Below, one piece after another: positions 9,763 through 58,340 of a stretch of DNA of 64,000 bases (position 1 is the first letter of the stretch; every line of letters begins with the position of its first letter). The notes beneath the pieces were generated by a model. It was not told where the DNA came from. It made no database searches and saw only the letters and a list, made by a program, of their open reading frames with translations. The DNA is taken from positions 1 through 64,000 of IMG/VR virus record IMGVR_UViG_3300026484_000095, one strand, 5' to 3'. The translations under genes and the position numbers were made by a program. The stretch comes from a virus.

Positions 9763-10275
9763 ATGACTGATATGATAGATAAACAAATAGCAACTCTTGA
9801 TAAATTAAAGATGGATATTATATCTATCATTGAAGACTCAGGGAATGCTAAGGAACTTACAGATAGATTTATGTCTTTATCAAGAACAGTAGATGAAGAT
9901 GATTATGAGATTATTCAGACTCTAATTCTTATGCAAGATATATCTAACACTAATCACAAAAACTTCAAAAATGTAGCCATACAAACTCTAACAATCTTGA
10001 TAGATTCCAAGATTAGTAGTTATCGTGATATTAAATTATTGAACGAAAGAATTACAGTATTAGAAAAAGCACAAGGCACACAAGTAAAGATACCTATGTT
10101 AGGTAAAATATCTACTAAGGATTTAATGTACTTTATAATCGCTATGTTCATTCTTATATTTACAGCTTACTCTCTCAATCCACAAGCTACAGAAAGAACT
10201 GCTAAGTTCGTAGGTGGCAAGGTTACAAAGAAATTGAAAGAAGAACTAGATATAAGTATAAAGGATAACCAATGA
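9763..10275 (+). CDS. Single-pass membrane protein with coiled coil, 170 aa
   Basis: Soluble helical N-terminal part (about 120 residues, ending in a short coiled coil NERITVLEKAQG), one membrane helix at about 124-142 (LMYFIIAMFILIFTAYSL) and a short basic C-terminal tail. Its TGA overlaps the ATG of the response-regulator gene (ATGA at 10272), so it belongs to the signalling operon. Function unknown; it could tether or connect the signalling proteins to the inner membrane. Confidence 0.7.
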   Translation: MTDMIDKQIATLDKLKMDIISIIEDSGNAKELTDRFMSLSRTVDEDDYEIIQTLILMQDISNTNHKNFKNVAIQTLTILIDSKISSYRDIKLLNERITVLEKAQGTQVKIPMLGKISTKDLMYFIIAMFILIFTAYSLNPQATERTAKFVGGKVTKKLKEELDISIKDNQ

Positions 10276-11093
10276 GTATTTTAGAAAGAATAAAAAATTT
10301 CCTTAAACTAACGGATAGAAATTCTAGAGAGAAAGAAAAATGCAAGTTTAACTCTGAGTGTGGGAATAAAAATTCTTCAAATTATGACCCTGATAAATGT
10401 CACTCTAATTTATCATCTTATAAAGATATATTAGATAGCATTAAAACAAAACCTAAGGAAGCTGATAAAGAGGAGCAACTAGTTCCCGATTTAGACCATA
10501 TAGAGCAAAGGGTCGATTGGTCTAAAAAGATTGTATTGATAATGGACGATGAGCCTTTAATCAATTATTTCATACAAGATGATTTAAGATACTTTGAATC
10601 AATAGCTAAGAAGATAGCAAAAGGTATTAATCTTAACTCATCTGATAAAACATTGTTGGCTTTAGCTGATGCTAATGAAGTTGGAGAAACATTGAGAAAT
10701 TTCACTGTTAATGATTACAGTATAATTTCGGTTACTGGTGATTACGCCGCTTTTTCTATACAAAGGTATATAGAGAAGATTAAAAGAGTAGACTATGCTG
10801 TTTTAGATATCTCTATCGGTGGCACTTTGGTTGTAAATGGTTCAAGAAAAAGATTAAGTGGTATTGATATTGCTATTACACTTAAAGAGAAAGTGAACCA
10901 CAAAGTCAATCTATTGATGTATACTGGGAATGATTTAGGTAAATATAGTCCTGAATCAATACAGTTTGAAGAGAATATCAAAGATGACTTGTTCTTGTAT
11001 TTAGTTAATAAGGACTCCCCTCTTAATGTTCGTAGAGTTAAGCTATTGCTATTTTTGATGAATAGACCTTTCTCTATGATTAATTATAATTAG
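10272..11093 (+). CDS. Response regulator-like protein with receiver domain, 273 aa
   Basis: Residues about 86-265 form a CheY-type receiver with all key residues: acidic pocket MDDEP (D92, D93, E94), phospho-acceptor D179 in YAVLDIS, T218 in LLMYTGND and K247 in NKDSP. There is an insertion of about 45 residues before D179 and an N-terminal linker with four Cys (residues 24-43). No DNA-binding output domain is present, so signalling must be by protein contact. It sits directly before the histidine kinase gene and is its likely partner. Receiver domains on phage genomes are rare. Confidence 0.8.
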   Translation: MSILERIKNFLKLTDRNSREKEKCKFNSECGNKNSSNYDPDKCHSNLSSYKDILDSIKTKPKEADKEEQLVPDLDHIEQRVDWSKKIVLIMDDEPLINYFIQDDLRYFESIAKKIAKGINLNSSDKTLLALADANEVGETLRNFTVNDYSIISVTGDYAAFSIQRYIEKIKRVDYAVLDISIGGTLVVNGSRKRLSGIDIAITLKEKVNHKVNLLMYTGNDLGKYSPESIQFEENIKDDLFLYLVNKDSPLNVRRVKLLLFLMNRPFSMINYN

Positions 11094-11105: not shown

Positions 11106-12506
11106 ATGCTTGAAGCTTTTTACTACGGGATGAAGAATAGACTACAAGGTCTGTTCTCCTCTATTTATTATGTTCAGAAAGAAGTTCTTACTTATCAAAA
11201 CAAAAAATTAATTATGAAAGTTATATCTGCAATAGCTATTATAGTACTCTTATCCAATCTTATATATTCTATATACTCTACAAATTCCCTTGTAGAAAAC
11301 AATAAACAGAACTTAATGGTTTCTATCAATGAGTTAATAACTTATGATGGTGAAGTGGATTTGACTTACATAGCAAATTTGTCTAAGGCTGATTTTATCA
11401 TTATTGAAAAGGGGGACACAACCTATAACATTTATCATAGAGAGGGTCAGTTACTGAAAAAATATAGAGATTCAGATAAGAATGATTATTACACTCCATT
11501 ATATACAGCAAACTATAAAGATTGGTATATATCTAACAATTTTAATTTGGTTATAAAGTTAACTAATTCTGATTTACAATATCATTCCAAATATAATGTA
11601 TTGTTGTTAAGCGGTTCTATACCATCTATCGTTATTTACAATTTCTTTTATACATTTTTATTAACTGTATTTTTCATTTTTCTTAGTTTAACTGCTATTG
11701 TATATGTAGCAAGTAAAGTTAGGATTTCAGAGCTGATAGCCACGGCAAGTAATGAAGCTATGCTACAAGTTAAGAATAGCCAAAAGTTCGTAGAGAGTAT
11801 GCACCACGAAGTAAAAACTCCCCTAGCTGTGTTAAATTCTACATTTAATAAAATGGAAGTATTAATAAATGACCTATGGGAGAACACTGAAAATTATGAT
11901 TATATCAAAGAGAGATTAGGGGAGGATAAGCAAATTATCGAGGATTTGACGGTAGCTGTGTCGTTCAATTTTGAGCTAATCTATAACATACTAGATAAAC
12001 AAAAGAATAATAGAGCTATAAGATTTTCTAACGGTAATTACAATCTATTTGACTTATTACAACACTCCTGTGAAAATTTGAGATGGGATACTAAAATAAA
12101 GTATTCGTATGATATAGACAATCGTTTTAAGCTGTTATCTAACAAAACCTTAGCTAATGAGGATTTTGTTAATATCTTTATTAATCATATTAAGAACTCA
12201 TTAGAAGCTAATGCAAATATGATTAAAATACACTTACAAGGTGTAAAAGATGATAAAGCTATTATTTTGTTAGCTGATAACGGTTCAGGAATACCTGATA
12301 GTGTAAAAGATATGATTTATCTTCCTAGCTTTTCAACCAAAAAACAATTAAAAGATAGCGATAATCAAGGTGTAGGAATGTACTTATGCCATTCTTTGTT
12401 AGAAGAAGCTAAAGGGTCTGAATCTGTTAAGTATAGCGATAGTCAAGGAACTGTATTTGAGATTATTCTCCCTATAACTGATTATATAGAAAAGGAGAAG
12501 CAATGA
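11106..12506 (+). CDS. Membrane sensor histidine kinase, 466 aa
   Basis: RBS GAGGAG before ATG 11106. Membrane helices at about 35-57 and 171-203 flank a periplasmic sensor region of about 110 residues. The H-box SMHHEVKTPL places the phospho-histidine at H234. The HATPase domain shows the N-box NHIKNSLEAN (N364), G1 box DNGSGIP (391-397), F-box FSTKK and G2 box GVGMYLC (422-428). All catalytic elements appear intact, so an active kinase is likely. Its TGA overlaps the ATG of the next gene at 12503. Expected to phosphorylate D179 of the 10272 protein; the stimulus is unknown. Confidence 0.9.
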   Translation: MLEAFYYGMKNRLQGLFSSIYYVQKEVLTYQNKKLIMKVISAIAIIVLLSNLIYSIYSTNSLVENNKQNLMVSINELITYDGEVDLTYIANLSKADFIIIEKGDTTYNIYHREGQLLKKYRDSDKNDYYTPLYTANYKDWYISNNFNLVIKLTNSDLQYHSKYNVLLLSGSIPSIVIYNFFYTFLLTVFFIFLSLTAIVYVASKVRISELIATASNEAMLQVKNSQKFVESMHHEVKTPLAVLNSTFNKMEVLINDLWENTENYDYIKERLGEDKQIIEDLTVAVSFNFELIYNILDKQKNNRAIRFSNGNYNLFDLLQHSCENLRWDTKIKYSYDIDNRFKLLSNKTLANEDFVNIFINHIKNSLEANANMIKIHLQGVKDDKAIILLADNGSGIPDSVKDMIYLPSFSTKKQLKDSDNQGVGMYLCHSLLEEAKGSESVKYSDSQGTVFEIILPITDYIEKEKQ

Positions 12507-12766
12507 AATACATACTTATAATGCTAGGCTTGTTATCAACTATCAATGCAGATTGTTTATTGGTGTTTAGGAAATATCCTAACATTGAGTTAGAAACTAA
12601 ATCTCATAAATCTTGGGTAAGAGTTTTAAACAATCCAAATAGATTGAAATACTATGGTTTATCAATAGATAAAAACAAGGGCGATATTATCATAATGATA
12701 AAATGCTTAAAAAATAAAAGAATAAACTTACAATTAGGAGAGGGACACAATGAAAGTGATTTTTAG
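12503..12766 (+). CDS. Small exported protein, 87 aa
   Basis: MKYILIMLGLLSTINA looks like a signal peptide with cleavage before DCLL. The mature part (about 70 residues, two Cys, basic) would be periplasmic and could be the ligand or accessory of the kinase sensor loop; that is inference from gene order. Overlaps the kinase gene by 4 bases and the outer-membrane protein gene by 17. Confidence 0.65.
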   Translation: MKYILIMLGLLSTINADCLLVFRKYPNIELETKSHKSWVRVLNNPNRLKYYGLSIDKNKGDIIIMIKCLKNKRINLQLGEGHNESDF

Positions 12767-13841
12767 TATAATGTTAATATGTATAACAACTTTATCAGCA
12801 AGGGATTTAGTAGCTGTTGATTTAGATGTAGCTAATTATTATTATACTTCAAAAGATGATAGTTACAACATACAAGACTATAAGGCACAAGTTACCTATG
12901 CAGAGGTATTTAAAAACAATTATAAAGTGGTTTCACAAGTGGAGGTATTAGCAAGGAGGAATGCTCACCTTAATCACGAAACATTCGATGGGAACTATAT
13001 TTATTTCAAAGCTCTTTATTTAGAGTATCTAATCAATAAGAACTATTCTTTTTATATTGGGAAAGTTCCTTATCTATATGATGAGCTAGATATATATAAC
13101 TATGGTGGTTCTAGTTCATCTAAAACAACTCTTGGAGAGGGCTTATTTTTAATTTCAGGTAATATACGAAATACAGTTGGTATTTCTTTTCATAAAGATA
13201 GGGCGAAGATAAACTTTGGTTATATAGCAAAGCTTGATAACTTCTTGGATGGTGCTTCTCCTTATCAAGATTTTAATATGCAATCTACATTTGATAAAGC
13301 AGATGGTCTAACTTTATATATTAAATGTAACCCTATTGAGAAGCATATATTTACCTATGACTCTTATTTAGTTAAAGCTCGTTTGAGTGATAAGAACACT
13401 GATATTTTAGCTTATAATGGGGCAATACAGTATTTATATGATGATACTGATTATTCAGGTTATAAGTTTATCAATGAGGTAGCTTACAGTTATAAGAACT
13501 CAGATAGTGATACACATACAACAACTAATGGTTATGCTTATAGAACAGCTATAATGAAACAGATTGACTATTTATATGAAACAGTCGTAGGTTTTGAGTA
13601 TATTAAGACTTCCAAAGATTTTGTATCTATAAAAACATCAGTAGTGAATAACCGTAACAATATGGTTTTCGGAGGTTCTAATTATAATATGTTCTCGACT
13701 TTCTCTTTTAGCAAAGATATATCTATGTCTTTTTGTTTTAGCTATCAGAGAGTAAATTATGTTAGACCTAGCTTAGAACAAGTTGTACCTTCAAATTTTT
13801 CAATTAAAACAATTCACACATCTATATCTTACCATTTCTAA
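12750..13841 (+). CDS. Outer-membrane beta-barrel protein, 363 aa
   Basis: SD TTAGGAGAGGG precedes ATG 12750. Signal peptide MKVIFSIMLICITTLSA, then amphipathic strands throughout, rich in Tyr and Asn, ending in ISYHF, the terminal-Phe signature that targets barrels to the BAM machinery. Strand count looks like a 14-18-stranded porin-type barrel of Campylobacterota or gamma-proteobacterial style. It closes the signalling operon. Roles such as blocking receptors against superinfection or altering uptake are possible but not shown. Confidence 0.8.
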   Translation: MKVIFSIMLICITTLSARDLVAVDLDVANYYYTSKDDSYNIQDYKAQVTYAEVFKNNYKVVSQVEVLARRNAHLNHETFDGNYIYFKALYLEYLINKNYSFYIGKVPYLYDELDIYNYGGSSSSKTTLGEGLFLISGNIRNTVGISFHKDRAKINFGYIAKLDNFLDGASPYQDFNMQSTFDKADGLTLYIKCNPIEKHIFTYDSYLVKARLSDKNTDILAYNGAIQYLYDDTDYSGYKFINEVAYSYKNSDSDTHTTTNGYAYRTAIMKQIDYLYETVVGFEYIKTSKDFVSIKTSVVNNRNNMVFGGSNYNMFSTFSFSKDISMSFCFSYQRVNYVRPSLEQVVPSNFSIKTIHTSISYHF

Positions 13842-16133: not shown

Positions 16134-16205
16134 GTAAGGTTAAAAGGTTATCGTGCAACCTGCTATATGGTTGTGTTGAAAACAAAAAAGCAAGGAGAAA
16201 GCAAA

Positions 16206-16529
16206 ATGAGTAAAGTAATGGAAATCCAAAACGAACAAGAGTTCGATAAGTTTGTAGAAGAAAATGGAACTGTCCTGATTGATTTCTGGGCACCGTGGTG
16301 TGGACCGTGTAGAATAATTGCACCAGTTATCGATGAGTTGGCAAGTGAAGAGGAAACAAACGGCTTTAAAGTTGTTAAAGTAAATACAGATGAGCAACCT
16401 GATTTGGCTCAAAGATTGGGTGTCCGTTCAATCCCAACTCTTATGGTGTATAAAAATGGTGAAATGGTAACAAGTGAAGCAGGTGCAAAAAGCAAAGACG
16501 CTATCAAACAGATGGTAGCTAATTGTTAG
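16206..16529 (+). CDS. Thioredoxin, 107 aa
   Basis: ATG at 16206 is preferred over an upstream in-frame start at 16167 because AAGGAGA lies 8 bases before it and the protein then starts like a normal thioredoxin. Active site WCGPC (C32, C35), and the cis-proline loop SIPT is present. Thioredoxins reduce disulfides; in phages they can serve ribonucleotide reductase or as polymerase partners. A second, more divergent copy lies at 49668. Confidence 0.92.
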   Translation: MSKVMEIQNEQEFDKFVEENGTVLIDFWAPWCGPCRIIAPVIDELASEEETNGFKVVKVNTDEQPDLAQRLGVRSIPTLMVYKNGEMVTSEAGAKSKDAIKQMVANC

Positions 16530-42450: not shown

Positions 42451-44226
42451 ATGGAAGTAGAGACTTTAAAATCAAAGCAATTAACAGAGTTGTTGCACGA
42501 GGATAGTCTAAATAATGAAGATGTCGTAAATGGTGTAAAGAACTCAAAGGAAGCAATCGAAAAAAGTTTATTTGAGCCTATACCTTATGAGGGTAAATTT
42601 GCACAAGAAGTATTAGTTCAAATACCTGAGTTCAAATGGCTTAAAGGTGTAAAATGCAATCTAGTATATAATGATACAAAAAAGAGTGATAGAGAGTATT
42701 TACGAGGGCTATATGAGAGGTTATATCGCAAAGCTAAGGTAATAAGTGCAAAAGTTGCTATTAAAGAGGAAATGCCTCTTATCGCAATAGATTTAGAAAC
42801 AACTGGGCTTAATACATCTATAAAAATGGTAGGTGGAGAGATACAACGAAACATTGATTTAGTTGGTATCTGTTTAGCAATTAGTAACAAAGACGGTTTC
42901 TATATCCCTATTAAACATACTGAAGAAGATGGTATTCCTAATATGGATTTAAACTCAGCTTTGGATTTTCTACAAGATATTATTGACAACTTCTATCAAA
43001 TATATCACAATGCTTTCTACGATATGGAAGTACTAAGTATTCATCAAATAGAAATGAATACAAATTATGCTGATACTATGCTTATAGCAAATAATCTAGG
43101 TATGAAAGAATGGGACGATGTCTATGGGCTTGGACTCAAATTCCTTAGTGGTTACATTTTAGAAAGAAAAATGCTAGAAATAAATGAACTTATGGGTGCT
43201 AAGGGTATAATCAAGTTCAATAGGTTAGCAAGTAAGGACGCTGTTGTTTATGGATGCTCCGATGCTATGAACACATTTGGATTATTTGAGGAAATGGTAC
43301 TTAAAGCAAGAGATGACGATAATCCTTATAAATATAATTCATTGGCTATGAAGCTAGACACAAAAGTTCTTAATCATTTAAGAGGTATGTTTAGACACGG
43401 CTTCCCATTAGATTATAAAGTAGCAAGAGGTAATTTCTTGACCCTCATAAATAGAATGATTTTGTTTCAAAAGTATTTTTATAGCTATGAAATAACACAA
43501 GGTTACTCTATCGGTTCAGCCGAGCAAGTTAATGTAATGTTCGGAACTGTATTAGCTACAAAGTATTTAGAACGATATGGTATTAGATTATCTGAGAGTA
43601 TGGACTGGAATAACAAAAGAGTTTTAGCTTGTAAGAAAGCTTTATATAATGATTTTGGCTTAGAGATGAAAATAAAGAAACTTAAGGCTAGTTCAAAATT
43701 AACATTTGCTACAAGAAAAGAGGGAACAACTGGGGTTAAGGTTCTTAGTTGGATTTTGTCTAACATTGATAAATGGGATTTTTTGGATGAGAGTTTAAGA
43801 GACGATATTTACTGGATAGCCAATATCGTTGATAAGTACAGAAGTATGGTAACTGAACAAGGTCGTTTAGGTAAGATGATTCGCTATGTTTATAATGATG
43901 ACTTAAACATAAGTCGTTTTGGTATCGCCTTGAACCTTAATGGTGCCGATACTTCGAGGTTCTCTAATAAATCAGGTGTCGGGTCATTTGATAGGTTAGA
44001 AGTTAAAATAACAAAGACTGGGAAAGTAAATACAAAGTATTATGAGGGTGACGGGATTGCAGGTATAAATGCACAAGGTGTTCCTGCTCAACCTTATTAT
44101 ACAATAAAAGCTAAGAGAATGAAAGTCTTACCTGAACAGATGTTGGAATACATCACAGAGAAAGAGTACGATATTAATAATTATTATGAAGAATTATTAA
44201 TAACCAAATTAGTAAAGAAGAAATAA
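42451..44226 (+). CDS. Family-A DNA polymerase, exonuclease and thumb part only, 591 aa
   Basis: Residues about 108-300 form a 3'-5' exonuclease: IAIDLETTGL (D114, E116), IYHNAFYDME and VYGCSDAMNTF. The rest follows polymerase I thumb/fingers order (RGMFRHGFPLD, MVTEQGRLGKMIRY) and reaches the element just before motif A (ADTSRFSN, INAQGVPAQP). The protein then ends in about 45 charged residues; the DYSQIE-type motif A, motif B and the HDE motif C are all absent. The catalytic half is not in this window, so the polymerase is split or truncated. Confidence 0.8.
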   Translation: MEVETLKSKQLTELLHEDSLNNEDVVNGVKNSKEAIEKSLFEPIPYEGKFAQEVLVQIPEFKWLKGVKCNLVYNDTKKSDREYLRGLYERLYRKAKVISAKVAIKEEMPLIAIDLETTGLNTSIKMVGGEIQRNIDLVGICLAISNKDGFYIPIKHTEEDGIPNMDLNSALDFLQDIIDNFYQIYHNAFYDMEVLSIHQIEMNTNYADTMLIANNLGMKEWDDVYGLGLKFLSGYILERKMLEINELMGAKGIIKFNRLASKDAVVYGCSDAMNTFGLFEEMVLKARDDDNPYKYNSLAMKLDTKVLNHLRGMFRHGFPLDYKVARGNFLTLINRMILFQKYFYSYEITQGYSIGSAEQVNVMFGTVLATKYLERYGIRLSESMDWNNKRVLACKKALYNDFGLEMKIKKLKASSKLTFATRKEGTTGVKVLSWILSNIDKWDFLDESLRDDIYWIANIVDKYRSMVTEQGRLGKMIRYVYNDDLNISRFGIALNLNGADTSRFSNKSGVGSFDRLEVKITKTGKVNTKYYEGDGIAGINAQGVPAQPYYTIKAKRMKVLPEQMLEYITEKEYDINNYYEELLITKLVKKK

Positions 44227-44243: not shown

Positions 44244-44819
44244 ATGGGTAGAAGTAAAGTAGATATATTAGCATCTTTATTAGATACGGAAACGAAATTA
44301 CATTGCGATATTGTAACAGAAGTAGCCTTACATTTGGGTAAGACTTTAAGATTACCTGATGAAGAATTATATAATTTAAAGATGGTAACTCATCTACACG
44401 ATATAGGGAAAGTAAAAATCCCTATAAATATAATCAATAAAAGAGGTAAGCTGACAGTTGATGAGTATAAGTTAATTATGCTACATTCAAGTATAGGTGA
44501 TGAGTTATACACTAAATTTACAGGTCATAAAGATAACACTGGTATTATTAGACATCACCACGAAAAGTGGAATGGTGAGGGATACCCTGATAAATTAAGA
44601 GGTATAGAAATACCTTTGTTGGCTCGTATAGTAGCTATTGCAGATGTTTATGAAGCATTGAGAAGTGCAAGACCTTATAAAAACTCTTGGTCGCATAATA
44701 AAACTTCTTCGTATATTTTGACAAATGGTGGGTCAATGTTCGACCCTAATTTAACAGCAGTATATTATAAAGAGAATAAAGCAATAGATAAACTATGGGT
44801 AGGTTTAAGAAATGGATAA
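44244..44819 (+). CDS. HD-GYP phosphodiesterase, 191 aa
   Basis: A complete stand-alone HD-GYP domain: HLHDIGK (H52, D53), H81, HHHEKWNGEGYP (H104-106, GxGYP at 111-115), AIADVYEALRS (D134) and RPYK. These enzymes hydrolyse cyclic dinucleotides (c-di-GMP, and in Vibrio 3'3'-cGAMP). No sensor or membrane domain. It overlaps the GGDEF gene by 8 bases, so both are translated together. It could reset host c-di-GMP or destroy a CBASS signal; the substrate cannot be told from sequence. Confidence 0.88.
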   Translation: MGRSKVDILASLLDTETKLHCDIVTEVALHLGKTLRLPDEELYNLKMVTHLHDIGKVKIPINIINKRGKLTVDEYKLIMLHSSIGDELYTKFTGHKDNTGIIRHHHEKWNGEGYPDKLRGIEIPLLARIVAIADVYEALRSARPYKNSWSHNKTSSYILTNGGSMFDPNLTAVYYKENKAIDKLWVGLRNG

Positions 44820-45282
44820 AAAGATAGAAGTGCTAGAGCAGGAAATTTTAACATTAAGAAGTTTAGTTAATAAATATAGATATGATTATCTAACTGGTTT
44901 AAAACAGCGATTAGATTTTGAGGATGATTTTAGTGAACTATTTTTTAGAAAGGAATCTTTCTCTTTGTTGGTCATTGACTTAAATAATCTTCATACAATT
45001 AATCTAAAGTTTGGTTACATTGAGGGCGATAGATTTATAAAAACTACTGCTTATCAAATATCTTCCAAAATTAAAGGGAGACTGTATAGAATAGGTGGAG
45101 ATGAATTTGCTTTATTAGTAACTGATTCAATAGATGATAATGAGCTAGACAAAATCCCTAACTGCACTTGGGCTTATAAGGAAGTGGATTATTTAAAACA
45201 TTTATCGACTAGTCATATATTCTCTGATGTTGATAAAATCTTGAAAGAGAAGAAAAGCAAACTGAAAGAACAAGTAAGATAG
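44812..45282 (+). CDS. GGDEF-domain protein, probable diguanylate cyclase, 156 aa
   Basis: After a short coiled coil, DYLTGLKQRLDFEDDF is the start of a GGDEF domain; then LLVIDLNNLHTIN (metal D56), FGYIEGDRFI and an intact RIGGDEF (95-99). No RxxD inhibitory site precedes it. Only 57 residues follow GGDEF, so the C-terminal part is shorter than usual (whole domain about 130 instead of 160-170). It may make c-di-GMP or another cyclic dinucleotide, or may just bind GTP. Confidence 0.82.
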   Translation: MDKKIEVLEQEILTLRSLVNKYRYDYLTGLKQRLDFEDDFSELFFRKESFSLLVIDLNNLHTINLKFGYIEGDRFIKTTAYQISSKIKGRLYRIGGDEFALLVTDSIDDNELDKIPNCTWAYKEVDYLKHLSTSHIFSDVDKILKEKKSKLKEQVR

Positions 45283-49667: not shown

Positions 49668-50021
49668 ATGACTGAGATTAGTGTAAAAACTGAGCAAGAG
49701 CTTGATGATGTTGTAAAGAGTAATGATTTTACTATGATTCGTTTCTCTGCTCAATGGTGCAACCCTTGTAAGATGTTAAATGAAACTATGGAGCAAAATG
49801 TATTGACTTCTGATGAGATTGACAGTAGCAAGATTGCTTTTGTTAAAATAGATGTAGATACACCAGAGCTTCAAACTTCCGTAGTACCCAAGTTTGATGT
49901 CCGTTCAATTCCTTATGTAGTCTTTGTAGATAAGCAAGGCACGAAGATAGAGGGTCTCAGTTTTGTTGGGTATAGAACTCCCGAAGATATACTAGAAATA
50001 ATTAAGGGTTTATATTCTTAA
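49668..50021 (+). CDS. Thioredoxin-like protein, 117 aa
   Basis: RBS AAAGGAAAG before ATG 49668. Active site QWCNPC (C31, C34) and cis-proline loop RSIPY. A WCNPC active site differs from the WCGPC of the copy at 16206, so redox potential or partner may differ. Stands near the recombination genes; role in ribonucleotide reduction or replication unknown. Confidence 0.85.
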   Translation: MTEISVKTEQELDDVVKSNDFTMIRFSAQWCNPCKMLNETMEQNVLTSDEIDSSKIAFVKIDVDTPELQTSVVPKFDVRSIPYVVFVDKQGTKIEGLSFVGYRTPEDILEIIKGLYS

Positions 50022-55718: not shown

Positions 55719-56000
55719 ATGGCATTTGATGAAAAGACCTTAAAGGCACTTAGCTCAAAGTATGCAAAAAAGAATGAAGATTTTATCTATAACCCTAACA
55801 GAGTTTTAGAGGGGGCTTCAACTGGTTCAGTTATTGCTGATACAGTTATAGGGCAAGAGGGTATGCTTTTAAAAGGCAGAATGACAGAGGTGTTTGGACC
55901 TGAGAGTTGTGTTACAGCAGATACAATGGTTGAGGTTAGAATTGATGGTGTGGAAAGACTTATCCCTATTATAGAATTACAAGGCTTATTAAATGGGTAA
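55719..56000 (+). CDS. recA: RecA N-terminal extein plus split-intein N part, 93 aa
   Basis: Residues 1-63 are RecA up to FGPES, the first half of the Walker A motif GPESSGKTT. C64 starts the intein N part, CVTADTMVEV... (block A), which is only about 30 residues and ends with this ORF. The matching C part begins in the 56838 gene. The cut falls inside the ATP-binding loop, so no RecA activity is possible before trans-splicing. Short N parts of this type are known from atypically split inteins (AceL-TerL, VidaL). Confidence 0.9.
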   Translation: MAFDEKTLKALSSKYAKKNEDFIYNPNRVLEGASTGSVIADTVIGQEGMLLKGRMTEVFGPESCVTADTMVEVRIDGVERLIPIIELQGLLNG

Positions 56001-56841
56001 AAGACTTTCGGATTTAGATATTATAGACGAGTGTAGAAGCTTAGGTCTTAAAGATATAGTTATCTATAGAGAGGAGTATAAGCCTCCGAGAGTGAGTTAT
56101 ATATGTACTTGTGGAGCTAAAGTCCAAAACAAAAATTGGTATAAAATAAAACACGAAAATCAATTTTTGTGTAAGGCTTGTTCTGACGACATAAGAAGTC
56201 AGGCTCAAATTAAATACTCTAAAAAAGTGATAAAAGGTAGGTTAAGTGAAGTTTCTAATGATAAACCCATAAAGATAAATGAGGGTATAAAGTCTGTTAG
56301 CGAGATACATTGTGAGTCTTGCAGTACTGTATACTATATTAGAAATGAGGAAATCTTTGCTTCTTACTTTAAAGGTCATCCTGATTGTTCTTATAAGCTG
56401 AAAATTAAATCTAAAGGAGAGTACTTCATAAAGGAATTATTGGATTCTTATAATATTAATTACTTACACAATAAATCTTTTAAGTCTTTAGGAATAGATA
56501 GTTTATTGAGATTTGATTTTTACCTACCTAATTTCAATTTAATAATTGAGTTTGATGGTATTCAACACTTCTCAAAAAAAGAATTAAAGAGGGTCGGTTA
56601 TAACATAAATTCTAGTAAATTTACAAGTAGAAAAGATTTATTCAAAGACCAAAGGCTAAGGGATTTCACTAAAAATCATCTTTGTTTAGATAATGATATT
56701 AATATACTTAGAATCCCTGCTTGGCATTTAGGTAAATTAAAAGAGATTCTACTTCCTATATTCACAAGAGAAGATGTAATTGAGGGCTTATATTACACTG
56801 ATGATAGTTTCTATAAAAAAGGTTCAAGGAGATTAATATGA
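55993..56841 (+). CDS. Free-standing EDxHD/Vsr-like homing endonuclease between the recA halves, 282 aa
   Basis: Overlaps the end of the recA N gene by 8 bases and the start of the recA C gene by 4. N-terminal zinc-type Cys pairs (C38/C40, C60/C63 and C107/C110). Catalytic-type core: GEYFIKELL (E143), LRFDFYLPNFNLIIEFDG (D175, E186, D188), then QHF (H192) and KDQRLRD (D219). This agrees with the Vsr-related EDxHD nucleases found in fractured intein genes. It should cut an uninterrupted recA allele and so spread the insertion. Confidence 0.8.
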   Translation: MGKRLSDLDIIDECRSLGLKDIVIYREEYKPPRVSYICTCGAKVQNKNWYKIKHENQFLCKACSDDIRSQAQIKYSKKVIKGRLSEVSNDKPIKINEGIKSVSEIHCESCSTVYYIRNEEIFASYFKGHPDCSYKLKIKSKGEYFIKELLDSYNINYLHNKSFKSLGIDSLLRFDFYLPNFNLIIEFDGIQHFSKKELKRVGYNINSSKFTSRKDLFKDQRLRDFTKNHLCLDNDINILRIPAWHLGKLKEILLPIFTREDVIEGLYYTDDSFYKKGSRRLI

Positions 56842-58340
56842 AGATAGAAATAAACACACCTGATGGGTGGCAAGAGGTAAGAAACTTCCAAGATAAAGGA
56901 TTTCAACATAGTATAAGAGTGGGTTTCTTCCGACCTGATAATCGTGAGATTATTTATGTTACCTGCTCTATTATGCACAGATTCCTATTATCAACTGGAG
57001 AGTGGATAGAGGCTGATTTACTCACAGAAGGTCATTTTATCCAATCTAAATGGGGTAATCTAAAATTTATGGCAAGAACAGATATGGGAGAACAACCTGT
57101 ATATGACATAGAGGTAAAGCACCCTAATCATAGATATTATACAAATGGTATTGTTTCTCACAATTCGGGAAAAACAACAATATGTTATCAGTCGATAGCA
57201 AGTGCACTGCAAAAGGGTTGGGTCGGTTGTATGTTCGATAATGAGCAGACTTTTGATAGTGATTATGCTCGTGCTTTAGGTGTAGAGATAGGAGAGAATT
57301 TTCAAGTGTTCCAACCTGATGATGCCGAAGAAGCAGAAGCTATATTCAATGAACTAGTCGGTATTGGTAAAGATGGTAAAACAAAAACACCTCTTCTCCC
57401 TGATATGGATTTTATAATTATTGATAGTATCACAGCTTGGGCACCTCGTAAATTGATGGCTATTGAAAATTCAACTGGTGAAGGTCAAACAAAAGGATTG
57501 CACGCCGCTTATTGGACTAATTTCAGTCGTAAGTTACAGATAGCTATTAAAAAGAGAAAGATTGCTTGTCTATGCACTAATCAGGTTCGTAACAAGTTGC
57601 AGATGGGTGGCTCGTTTCAAGCACAAGCTATGAAAGACACTGGTATCGGTGCAGGTTTCAGTCAAGATGCAGGGTGGACTACAACTGGTGGTAATGCTCT
57701 TAGATTTTATATGTCTGTGAGAACTCTAATGTATCAAGCTAAGAAGCTGAAAGAGACGAGAGTTATTAGAGGTGTAGAAACAGATGTAGACGAAGCACAT
57801 TGGGTGGAGTTCAAAAATGTTAAAAACAAAGTATCAGCACCTTTTAGAAAAGCTAGATTGGTTCTTAGATATGGTGTAGGAACTGATGATATTCCTCCTA
57901 TGATGGAGTATCTTAAATTGAATGGTATCATAACAAATGCAGGTGCTAACTTGATGTATAAGTCAAGTGACGGTAGTTGTGATGTTAAAGAGTTCGGAGC
58001 TAAGAAGTTCGATAAGGCTATGAAAGACCCTACTGTTGTTAAAGATATGAGAAAACAATATATAGCATTGAAAAGAGAAGAAGACCCTTATGCAGATGAA
58101 GATGAGGACATAGCAGTATTCTCTGACGATGAAGATGGAGTGGAGTTCGACGAAGAAGAGGTTGATTTTGATGAAGTAGAAACTGATAATGAAATCGAAG
58201 ATGAGGAAGAGGACAGTGGCTCTATAAAAGATTGGTCGTTAGCTGATTTAAAACAACTTGCAAAAGATGAAAAAATCAAAATCGTTGGTAAAGTAACTAA
58301 AGAGAAGTTGCTTAAAAAATTGTTAAAAATATATGATTAG
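56838..58340 (+). CDS. recA: Split-intein C part plus RecA C-terminal extein, 500 aa
   Basis: ATG 56838 has AAGGAG 8 bases upstream. Residues 1-109 are the intein C part (block B CSIMH, block F VYDIEVKHPNHRYY, block G NGIVSHN). Residue 110 (Ser) is the +1 extein residue and restores SGKTT. The RecA core follows: IIIDSITAW, LCTNQVR and GGNALRFYMSVR. The C-terminus is very acidic and ends in an HeH/SAP-like unit (SLADLKQLAKDEKIKIVG). Spliced product would be 63 + 391 = 454 residues. Confidence 0.92.
   Translation: MKIEINTPDGWQEVRNFQDKGFQHSIRVGFFRPDNREIIYVTCSIMHRFLLSTGEWIEADLLTEGHFIQSKWGNLKFMARTDMGEQPVYDIEVKHPNHRYYTNGIVSHNSGKTTICYQSIASALQKGWVGCMFDNEQTFDSDYARALGVEIGENFQVFQPDDAEEAEAIFNELVGIGKDGKTKTPLLPDMDFIIIDSITAWAPRKLMAIENSTGEGQTKGLHAAYWTNFSRKLQIAIKKRKIACLCTNQVRNKLQMGGSFQAQAMKDTGIGAGFSQDAGWTTTGGNALRFYMSVRTLMYQAKKLKETRVIRGVETDVDEAHWVEFKNVKNKVSAPFRKARLVLRYGVGTDDIPPMMEYLKLNGIITNAGANLMYKSSDGSCDVKEFGAKKFDKAMKDPTVVKDMRKQYIALKREEDPYADEDEDIAVFSDDEDGVEFDEEEVDFDEVETDNEIEDEEEDSGSIKDWSLADLKQLAKDEKIKIVGKVTKEKLLKKLLKIYD

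Follow-up and report, generated by a model that had tools for sequence, protein, structure and literature searches.

Overlapping HD-GYP and mini-GGDEF genes of a phage: a putative cyclic di-GMP module

In many bacteria, c-di-GMP decides whether cells swim, stick or change their surface. Why would a phage encode, in two overlapping genes, one protein predicted to make this messenger and another predicted to degrade it, and do the two proteins belong together? The question is raised by a locus in a stretch of 64,000 nucleotides of viral DNA (referred to here as the window), which is the start of a viral record of 109,819 bp.

Locus and gene neighbourhood

The two genes (Table 1) lie directly downstream of a split DNA polymerase, so that the pair sits among replication genes, and both the HD-GYP and the GGDEF family are represented by a single copy in the whole record. 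The initial annotation reported that the two frames overlap by 8 nt, and its coordinates were recovered exactly. Its description of the genes as translationally coupled is plausible, but overlaps of 1–30 nt are found at 28 of the 156 gene junctions of this phage, and the overlap is therefore unremarkable as evidence for this particular pair. A small Myb/SANT-like gene begins 2 nt past the GGDEF stop and is probably carried on the same transcript; no functional link between it and the pair is known. The record also harbours a large terminase, an endolysin, UvsX/RecA, a split family-A polymerase and an Rz-like spanin, the last of which is a sign of a Gram-negative host; searches for host clues with the helicase, the terminase and a barrel-like protein (see below) returned remote matches or none.

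HD-GYP and GGDEF proteins are both frequent as bacterial cargo, and among phages nothing close to this HD-GYP was found, the best match reaching 41% identity. These facts would suit host-derived passengers without any role in infection, a reading that is nevertheless extremely improbable given that the G+C contents (31.6% for the HD-GYP gene and 28.9% for the GGDEF gene) and the G+C at third codon positions are close to the phage's own, that both genes are intact inside the replication-gene cluster, and that the GGDEF protein belongs to an old phage-only clade, as described below.

Table 1. Features of the HD-GYP/mini-GGDEF locus (nucleotide positions refer to the window, residue numbers to the phage proteins).
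Feature	Position	Strand	Evidence
Exonuclease (N-terminal) part of split family-A DNA polymerase	42451..44226	+	Pfam DNA_pol_A_exo1 1e-11; PHROG DNA polymerase
HD-GYP ORF, 191 aa	44244-44819	+	Pfam HD_5 4.4e-30
HD-GYP metal ligands (PmGH equivalents)	E16 (E185), H20 (H189), H52/D53 (H221/D222), H81 (H250), H105/H106 (H276/H277), D134 (D305)		
Other HD-GYP residues (PmGH equivalents)	D14 (D183), K56 (K225), G113-Y114-P115 (GYP), I123 (I294)		
HD-GYP guanine contacts (PmGH equivalents)	R143 (R314), K146 (K317)		
Overlap of HD-GYP and GGDEF frames, 8 nt, ATGGATAA	44812..44819	+	Direct sequence reading
Mini-GGDEF ORF, 156 aa, stand-alone, predicted minimal diguanylate cyclase	44812-45282	+	Pfam GGDEF 4.7e-14
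Mini-GGDEF features	Zipper helix 3-23; D56, metal ligand; N64 and D73, guanine readers; YRIGGDEF 92-99; K148		
Small Myb/SANT-like protein, 141 aa	45285..45710	+	Pfam Myb_DNA-bind_6 4e-5, barely over cut-off

The HD-GYP protein

The first gene encodes a full HD-GYP domain, as had been claimed, with a Pfam HD_5 match that spans the full length of the model (positions 5–170 of 170). Individual residues were assigned by a phmmer alignment (2e-26) to PmGH of Persephonella marina (PDB 4mcw), a trinuclear c-di-GMP phosphodiesterase with 32% identity to the phage protein, together with the residue list of PMC4159591. A pocket lacking metal had been named as a finding that would speak against an active enzyme; at the sequence level, all eight metal ligands of PmGH are present. 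The essential D183 and K225 of PmGH are likewise kept, as are both guanine contacts, and the signature motifs read HDIGK (HDxGK) and HHEKWNGEGYP (HHExxxGxGYP). The glutamate corresponding to E185 assigns the protein to the carboxylate class, whose members form a trinuclear centre. A single departure was observed: D308 of PmGH, which that enzyme requires for full activity, is replaced by E137. The phage protein differs further in that it is a single 191-aa domain devoid of the N-terminal sensory domain of PmGH. Its AlphaFold2 (AF2) model is confident (pLDDT 94), and the top PDB match in Foldseek is 4mcw itself (TM 0.83–0.85). With the complete set of ligands, catalytic residues and guanine contacts and a confident PmGH-like fold, the best reading is that of a predicted c-di-GMP phosphodiesterase of the trinuclear class.

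The substrate could, however, be a different one. The initial annotation considered the removal of a CBASS alarm molecule, and in its general form this proposal would make the HD-GYP a counter-defence enzyme against cyclic di- or oligonucleotide alarms (CBASS, type III CRISPR), the GGDEF protein having a separate job. Its function would then be like that of Acb1 or Acb2, in an HD-GYP fold. Some HD-GYPs do cleave 3'3'-cGAMP (PMC8177086), and V-cGAP3 (5z7c) is the top match in a sequence search of the PDB; the fold and pocket of the phage protein are, though, closer to PmGH than to V-cGAP3, with which the fold match has a TM of only 0.70. HD-GYPs of jumbo phages have been predicted to counter nucleotide-based defences (PMC7824862), and the single-domain form is found on numerous viral contigs, with 91 stretches matching the motif; no link to any defence system was found within the 64-kb window. 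The mini-GGDEFs of the other contigs examined occur without the HD-GYP partner, as a separate job would lead one to expect, but c-di-GMP is the obvious substrate for an enzyme co-translated with a predicted synthase of that messenger, and one would hardly expect a phage to synthesise a defence signal that it also destroys. The PmxA glutamine tied to 3'3'-cGAMP selectivity is no general marker (PMC4159591, PMC8177086), and the equivalents of R314 and K317 and the guanine readers of the GGDEF protein are kept, so that there is no pointer to cGAMP. Removal of a CBASS alarm molecule is possible but weaker than cleavage of c-di-GMP, and counter-defence as a whole is rather unlikely. The jumbo-phage enzymes are likewise phage-borne and predicted to hydrolyse nucleotide signals, and differ from the present case in that here the HD-GYP stands beside a protein predicted to synthesise its own substrate messenger, a pairing that the accessible text of PMC7824862 does not mention. 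A further HD-GYP, preceded by a PAS-like region, was seen on a 181-kb phage contig without a GGDEF (L002, 7470–8537), whose endolysin is 51% identical to that of the window phage.

The mini-GGDEF protein and its family

The second protein had been described as a short GGDEF domain with an intact RIGGDEF. The motif and the shortness both stand, the Pfam GGDEF match covering only positions 3–96 of 161, but the AF2 model (pLDDT 93) refines this picture to a complete fold with a complete sheet, in which helix alpha4 is cut to about five residues. The protein departs from a full-length GGDEF domain (~160 positions) in a way common to its whole family, rather than by truncation of one copy, and it has D-x-N-x-L-H where classical cyclases have DxDxFK. 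It retains the RxGGD/EEF A-site, the metal-binding Asp, the guanine-reading Asn and Asp and the C-terminal Lys, the set by which a cyclase would be recognised; the last four positions are those that we take, from profile alignments and established knowledge, to be D327, N335, D344 and K442 of PleD. It lacks the RxxD inhibitory site (I-site) and has no membrane segments. Its best PDB fold neighbours are true diguanylate cyclases (TM up to 0.82), including the coiled-coil cyclases 3i5c and 6ttr. With WspR, DgcB, DgcR and PleD (TM 0.7–0.82) it shares the A-site, the metal and guanine-reading residues, the Lys and the zipper stalk, and it differs from them by the absence of a sensory domain and of the I-site, by L-H in place of F-K, by being some 17 residues shorter and by forming its own clade.

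Three other identities were considered and rejected. A truncated pseudogene is ruled out by the family-wide shortening and the confident model. In Hypr GGDEF proteins, which are 3'3'-cGAMP synthases, a Ser replaces the guanine-reading Asp, and this identity is ruled out because D73 is kept (Asp in 31 of 33 family members, Asn in the other two). The mCpol/Panoptes protein OptS, in which the GGDEF motif is nearly absent and which has an effector partner (PMC12657218), is ruled out by the intact GGDEF and by the lack of a PADLOC match. No dedicated PHROG or NCBIfam model matched the protein, the matches being to longer GGDEF proteins.

Scans of the viral contig collection, two of them pattern scans that enlarged the group, yielded, alongside ordinary GGDEF proteins, 33 intact stand-alone members including the window copy; two pairs are near-copies, and a further copy interrupted by a stop codon (L005) is not counted. 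The members have 147–222 aa (mostly 150–190) and resemble the window protein over their whole length. All were found through the pattern [Y/F]R-x-GGDEF, and YRIGGDEF served to assemble the bacterial sequences for comparison; the count of members is therefore a minimum, and bacterial relatives in which the motif differs may have been missed. Seven residues outside the search pattern are invariant in all 33 (D25, T28, D56, L60, N64, G72 and K148). The conservation of D56, N64, D73 and K148 is informative precisely because none of them belongs to the pattern. The RxxD site is absent from every member, the spacing from GGDEF to the Lys has a median of 48 residues as against 65 in other GGDEFs, and the L-H that replaces F-K is fixed at its first position and present in 28 members at its second (H61), while the G-H of classical cyclases is G-Y. 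In the N-terminal stalk, the a/d positions 5, 8, 12, 15, 19 and 22 are hydrophobic in 62–100% of members, in a zipper register that suggests dimerization through the stalk.

A maximum-likelihood tree was built from 87 domains, 17 of them from the family (alignment A1) and 70 others; the 17 mini-GGDEFs form a clade with 97/97 support on a long stem. Members score 97–190 bits on the family profile; the highest bacterial score, 98.5 bits, came from a 564-aa protein in a set of about 80 loci, and in three bacterial control genomes with 98 GGDEF matches the best score per genome was 64–86 bits. Since one weak member (L335, 96.9 bits) overlaps the bacterial range, the family has no sharp boundary. 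On the present search sets, the sequences are those of a putative virus-only family distributed over more than 30 mostly unrelated viruses, and, judged by residues and model, the mini-GGDEF has the appearance of a diguanylate cyclase reduced to its minimum and free of regulation, for which many phages have been selected. If active, its members would be, to our knowledge, among the smallest natural stand-alone cyclases. The loss of most of alpha4 and the L-H and G-Y substitutions mean that catalysis is possibly altered or absent; the small size and, in the window copy, the lack of membrane segments leave this question open to simple assays.

Degenerate GGDEF domains often turn into receptors, and the shortened domain with its two substitutions could be taken for such a case, a non-enzymatic sensor of GTP or c-di-GMP or a decoy, which might for instance activate the HD-GYP. 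A GGDEF domain that serves as a receptor has, though, usually lost A-site residues or retained the I-site, and the mini-GGDEFs do the opposite, so that the role of decoy or regulator proposed for this protein in the initial annotation fits poorly with an invariant catalytic site and appears very unlikely.

Two observations on variants may be added. Two members (L009, 7950–8618; L010, 7959–8627) are extended at the C terminus by about 45 residues, in a variant of the family architecture. A GGDEF subgroup found mostly in Clostridia, with the motif D-x-NGLHE-x-NN (L133, L078, L082, L125, L130, L118, L128, L088, L090 and L027), also has L-H for F-K, forms a separate clade in the tree, and may share the altered chemistry of the mini-GGDEFs.

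Cyclases on phages are already known, as are the HD-GYPs of jumbo phages (PMC7824862), and GGDEF proteins have been described in Mu-like viruses of the Cariaco Basin (PMC7785012). Among the annotated phage GGDEFs (Bacillus phage SP-15, phage G gp350 and Bordetella phage CN1), the SP-15 and CN1 proteins are also small. The annotated phage proteins have 17–25% identity to the mini-GGDEF in the fold match, sequence searches of the phage collection did not recover them among its close relatives, and their membership of the family is unsupported. A search of the open-access literature found neither the family nor the pair described, which is weak evidence of absence; what is new is a minimal architecture of known domains, a phage-only clade and an unusual pairing.

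Distribution and possible role of the pair

A large terminase was matched in 12 of 31 mini-GGDEF contigs, the window phage included, with a profile (PHROG 2) that does not span the whole diversity of terminases. In the regions compared, most member contigs have no further gene in common with the window phage, and one contig alone (L017) shares its replication gene set. The carriers being otherwise mostly unrelated, the mini-GGDEF gene has either persisted or moved among different phages. The survey of phages that had been proposed for this locus thus found GGDEF proteins to be widespread, and the pair to be unique among the contigs examined: an HD-GYP was present in none of 34 other mini-GGDEF records (18 GGDEF-bearing records of a first set and 16 of a second), of which 32 have intact family members, one has the copy with the internal stop and one is borderline (L016), and no mini-GGDEF was found beside the single-domain HD-GYPs of other viral contigs in the stretches examined. 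The pair is therefore a local combination of two phage-borne parts; its conservation is unsupported, and a chance neighbourhood is possible. PilZ receptors were found neither in the phage nor in the other contigs examined. One contig (G013), the only one with an EAL domain, has four GGDEFs and may contain bacterial DNA. Candidates for further phages with both domains (MT838977, MT836999 and MT835756) were set aside as unverified faecal scaffolds with multi-domain or fused proteins of bacterial type (45–82 bits). The HD-GYP of Microcystis phage MaAM05 was not accepted as a phage gene either, as its region (MW495066.1, 31664–38086; L393), with trxB, coaD, secE and tRNA-Trp around the gene, resembles a bacterial chromosome.

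Partnership of an HD-GYP and a GGDEF protein has a precedent in Xanthomonas, in which RpfG-GGDEF complexes control pili through a contact that needs the GYP motif, kept here, and not cyclase activity (PMC3749722). RpfG also binds and inhibits the cyclase WspR (PMC9758175), and some ORFs of bacteria and of viral contigs join an HD-GYP to a GGDEF domain (L109, L119, L185 and L197). The phage pair might accordingly act mainly as a physical complex that steers pili or other host machinery, with catalysis secondary. This is distinctly unlikely: the invariance of catalytic residues in a family otherwise without HD-GYPs argues for catalysis independent of a partner, and the DxD motif of the contact (PMC3749722) is probably D-x-N in the mini-GGDEF, going by its most likely position, the placement of the motif being approximate. 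RpfG differs from the phage HD-GYP in carrying a receiver domain and belonging to a quorum-sensing pathway; the phage pair consists of two single-domain proteins with a putative contact.

To the reading in which the two genes form a c-di-GMP module, with a mini-GGDEF cyclase and an HD-GYP phosphodiesterase that reset host c-di-GMP, we would give about an even chance. Opposite activities on c-di-GMP, the central claim made for this locus, agree with the residues, predicted folds and conservation (HD-GYP ligands complete, GGDEF site kept in all 33 members). The mini-GGDEF would dimerize by its N-terminal zipper helix and convert GTP to c-di-GMP free of a sensory domain or product-inhibition site, and raising c-di-GMP during infection would be the conserved job of this widespread phage-specific protein. 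The HD-GYP, translated just before it, would use a trinuclear metal centre to cleave c-di-GMP towards GMP and could serve in the window phage as a brake, a timer or a direct binding partner of the cyclase. Both activities on one transcript might produce a pulse of c-di-GMP or hold it at a set level, or let the two proteins control each other in a complex, and the likely benefit would lie in steering the motility, surface or biofilm programme of the host and thereby the cell-surface receptors available to further phages. At least one coliphage, N4, depends on c-di-GMP for its receptor, and the sensitivity of E. coli to it is set by c-di-GMP in this way (PMC8669472). A broader and more doubtful proposal is that an old phage-only lineage of minimal cyclases floods cells with c-di-GMP in many mostly unrelated phages, and that the HD-GYP was added in one lineage as a set-and-reset switch for the sessile/motile decision or for surface receptors. 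If these apparently unregulated cyclases are indeed a conserved family of phages, the c-di-GMP switch would be one that phages operate for themselves.

Other features of the phage were observed along with the pair. A membrane-type sensor histidine kinase (11106–12506; HATPase 2.7e-12) is preceded by an ORF (10272–11093) that looks receiver-like by eye (IVLIMDDEP) and gave no convincing Pfam, NCBIfam or PHROG match; the two are possibly a phage-borne two-component system. The family-A polymerase lies in distant pieces, its motif B and motif C parts being at the other end of the record (107147–107899 and 107901–108458; L037) beside a homing endonuclease; motif A was not found by a simple pattern. 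UvsX/RecA is split at Walker A into two ORFs with a homing endonuclease ORF between them (55719–56000, 55993–56841 and 56838–58340), and the apparent intein halves (CVTADT... and ...VSHNSGKTT) suggest a split intein in a gene that has been fractured. A 363-aa protein (12750–13841) with an apparent signal peptide, a terminal Phe, the look of an outer-membrane barrel and no family matches is a possible surface or superinfection protein. Two thioredoxin-like proteins (16167–16529 and 49668–50021) are encoded on the same phage.
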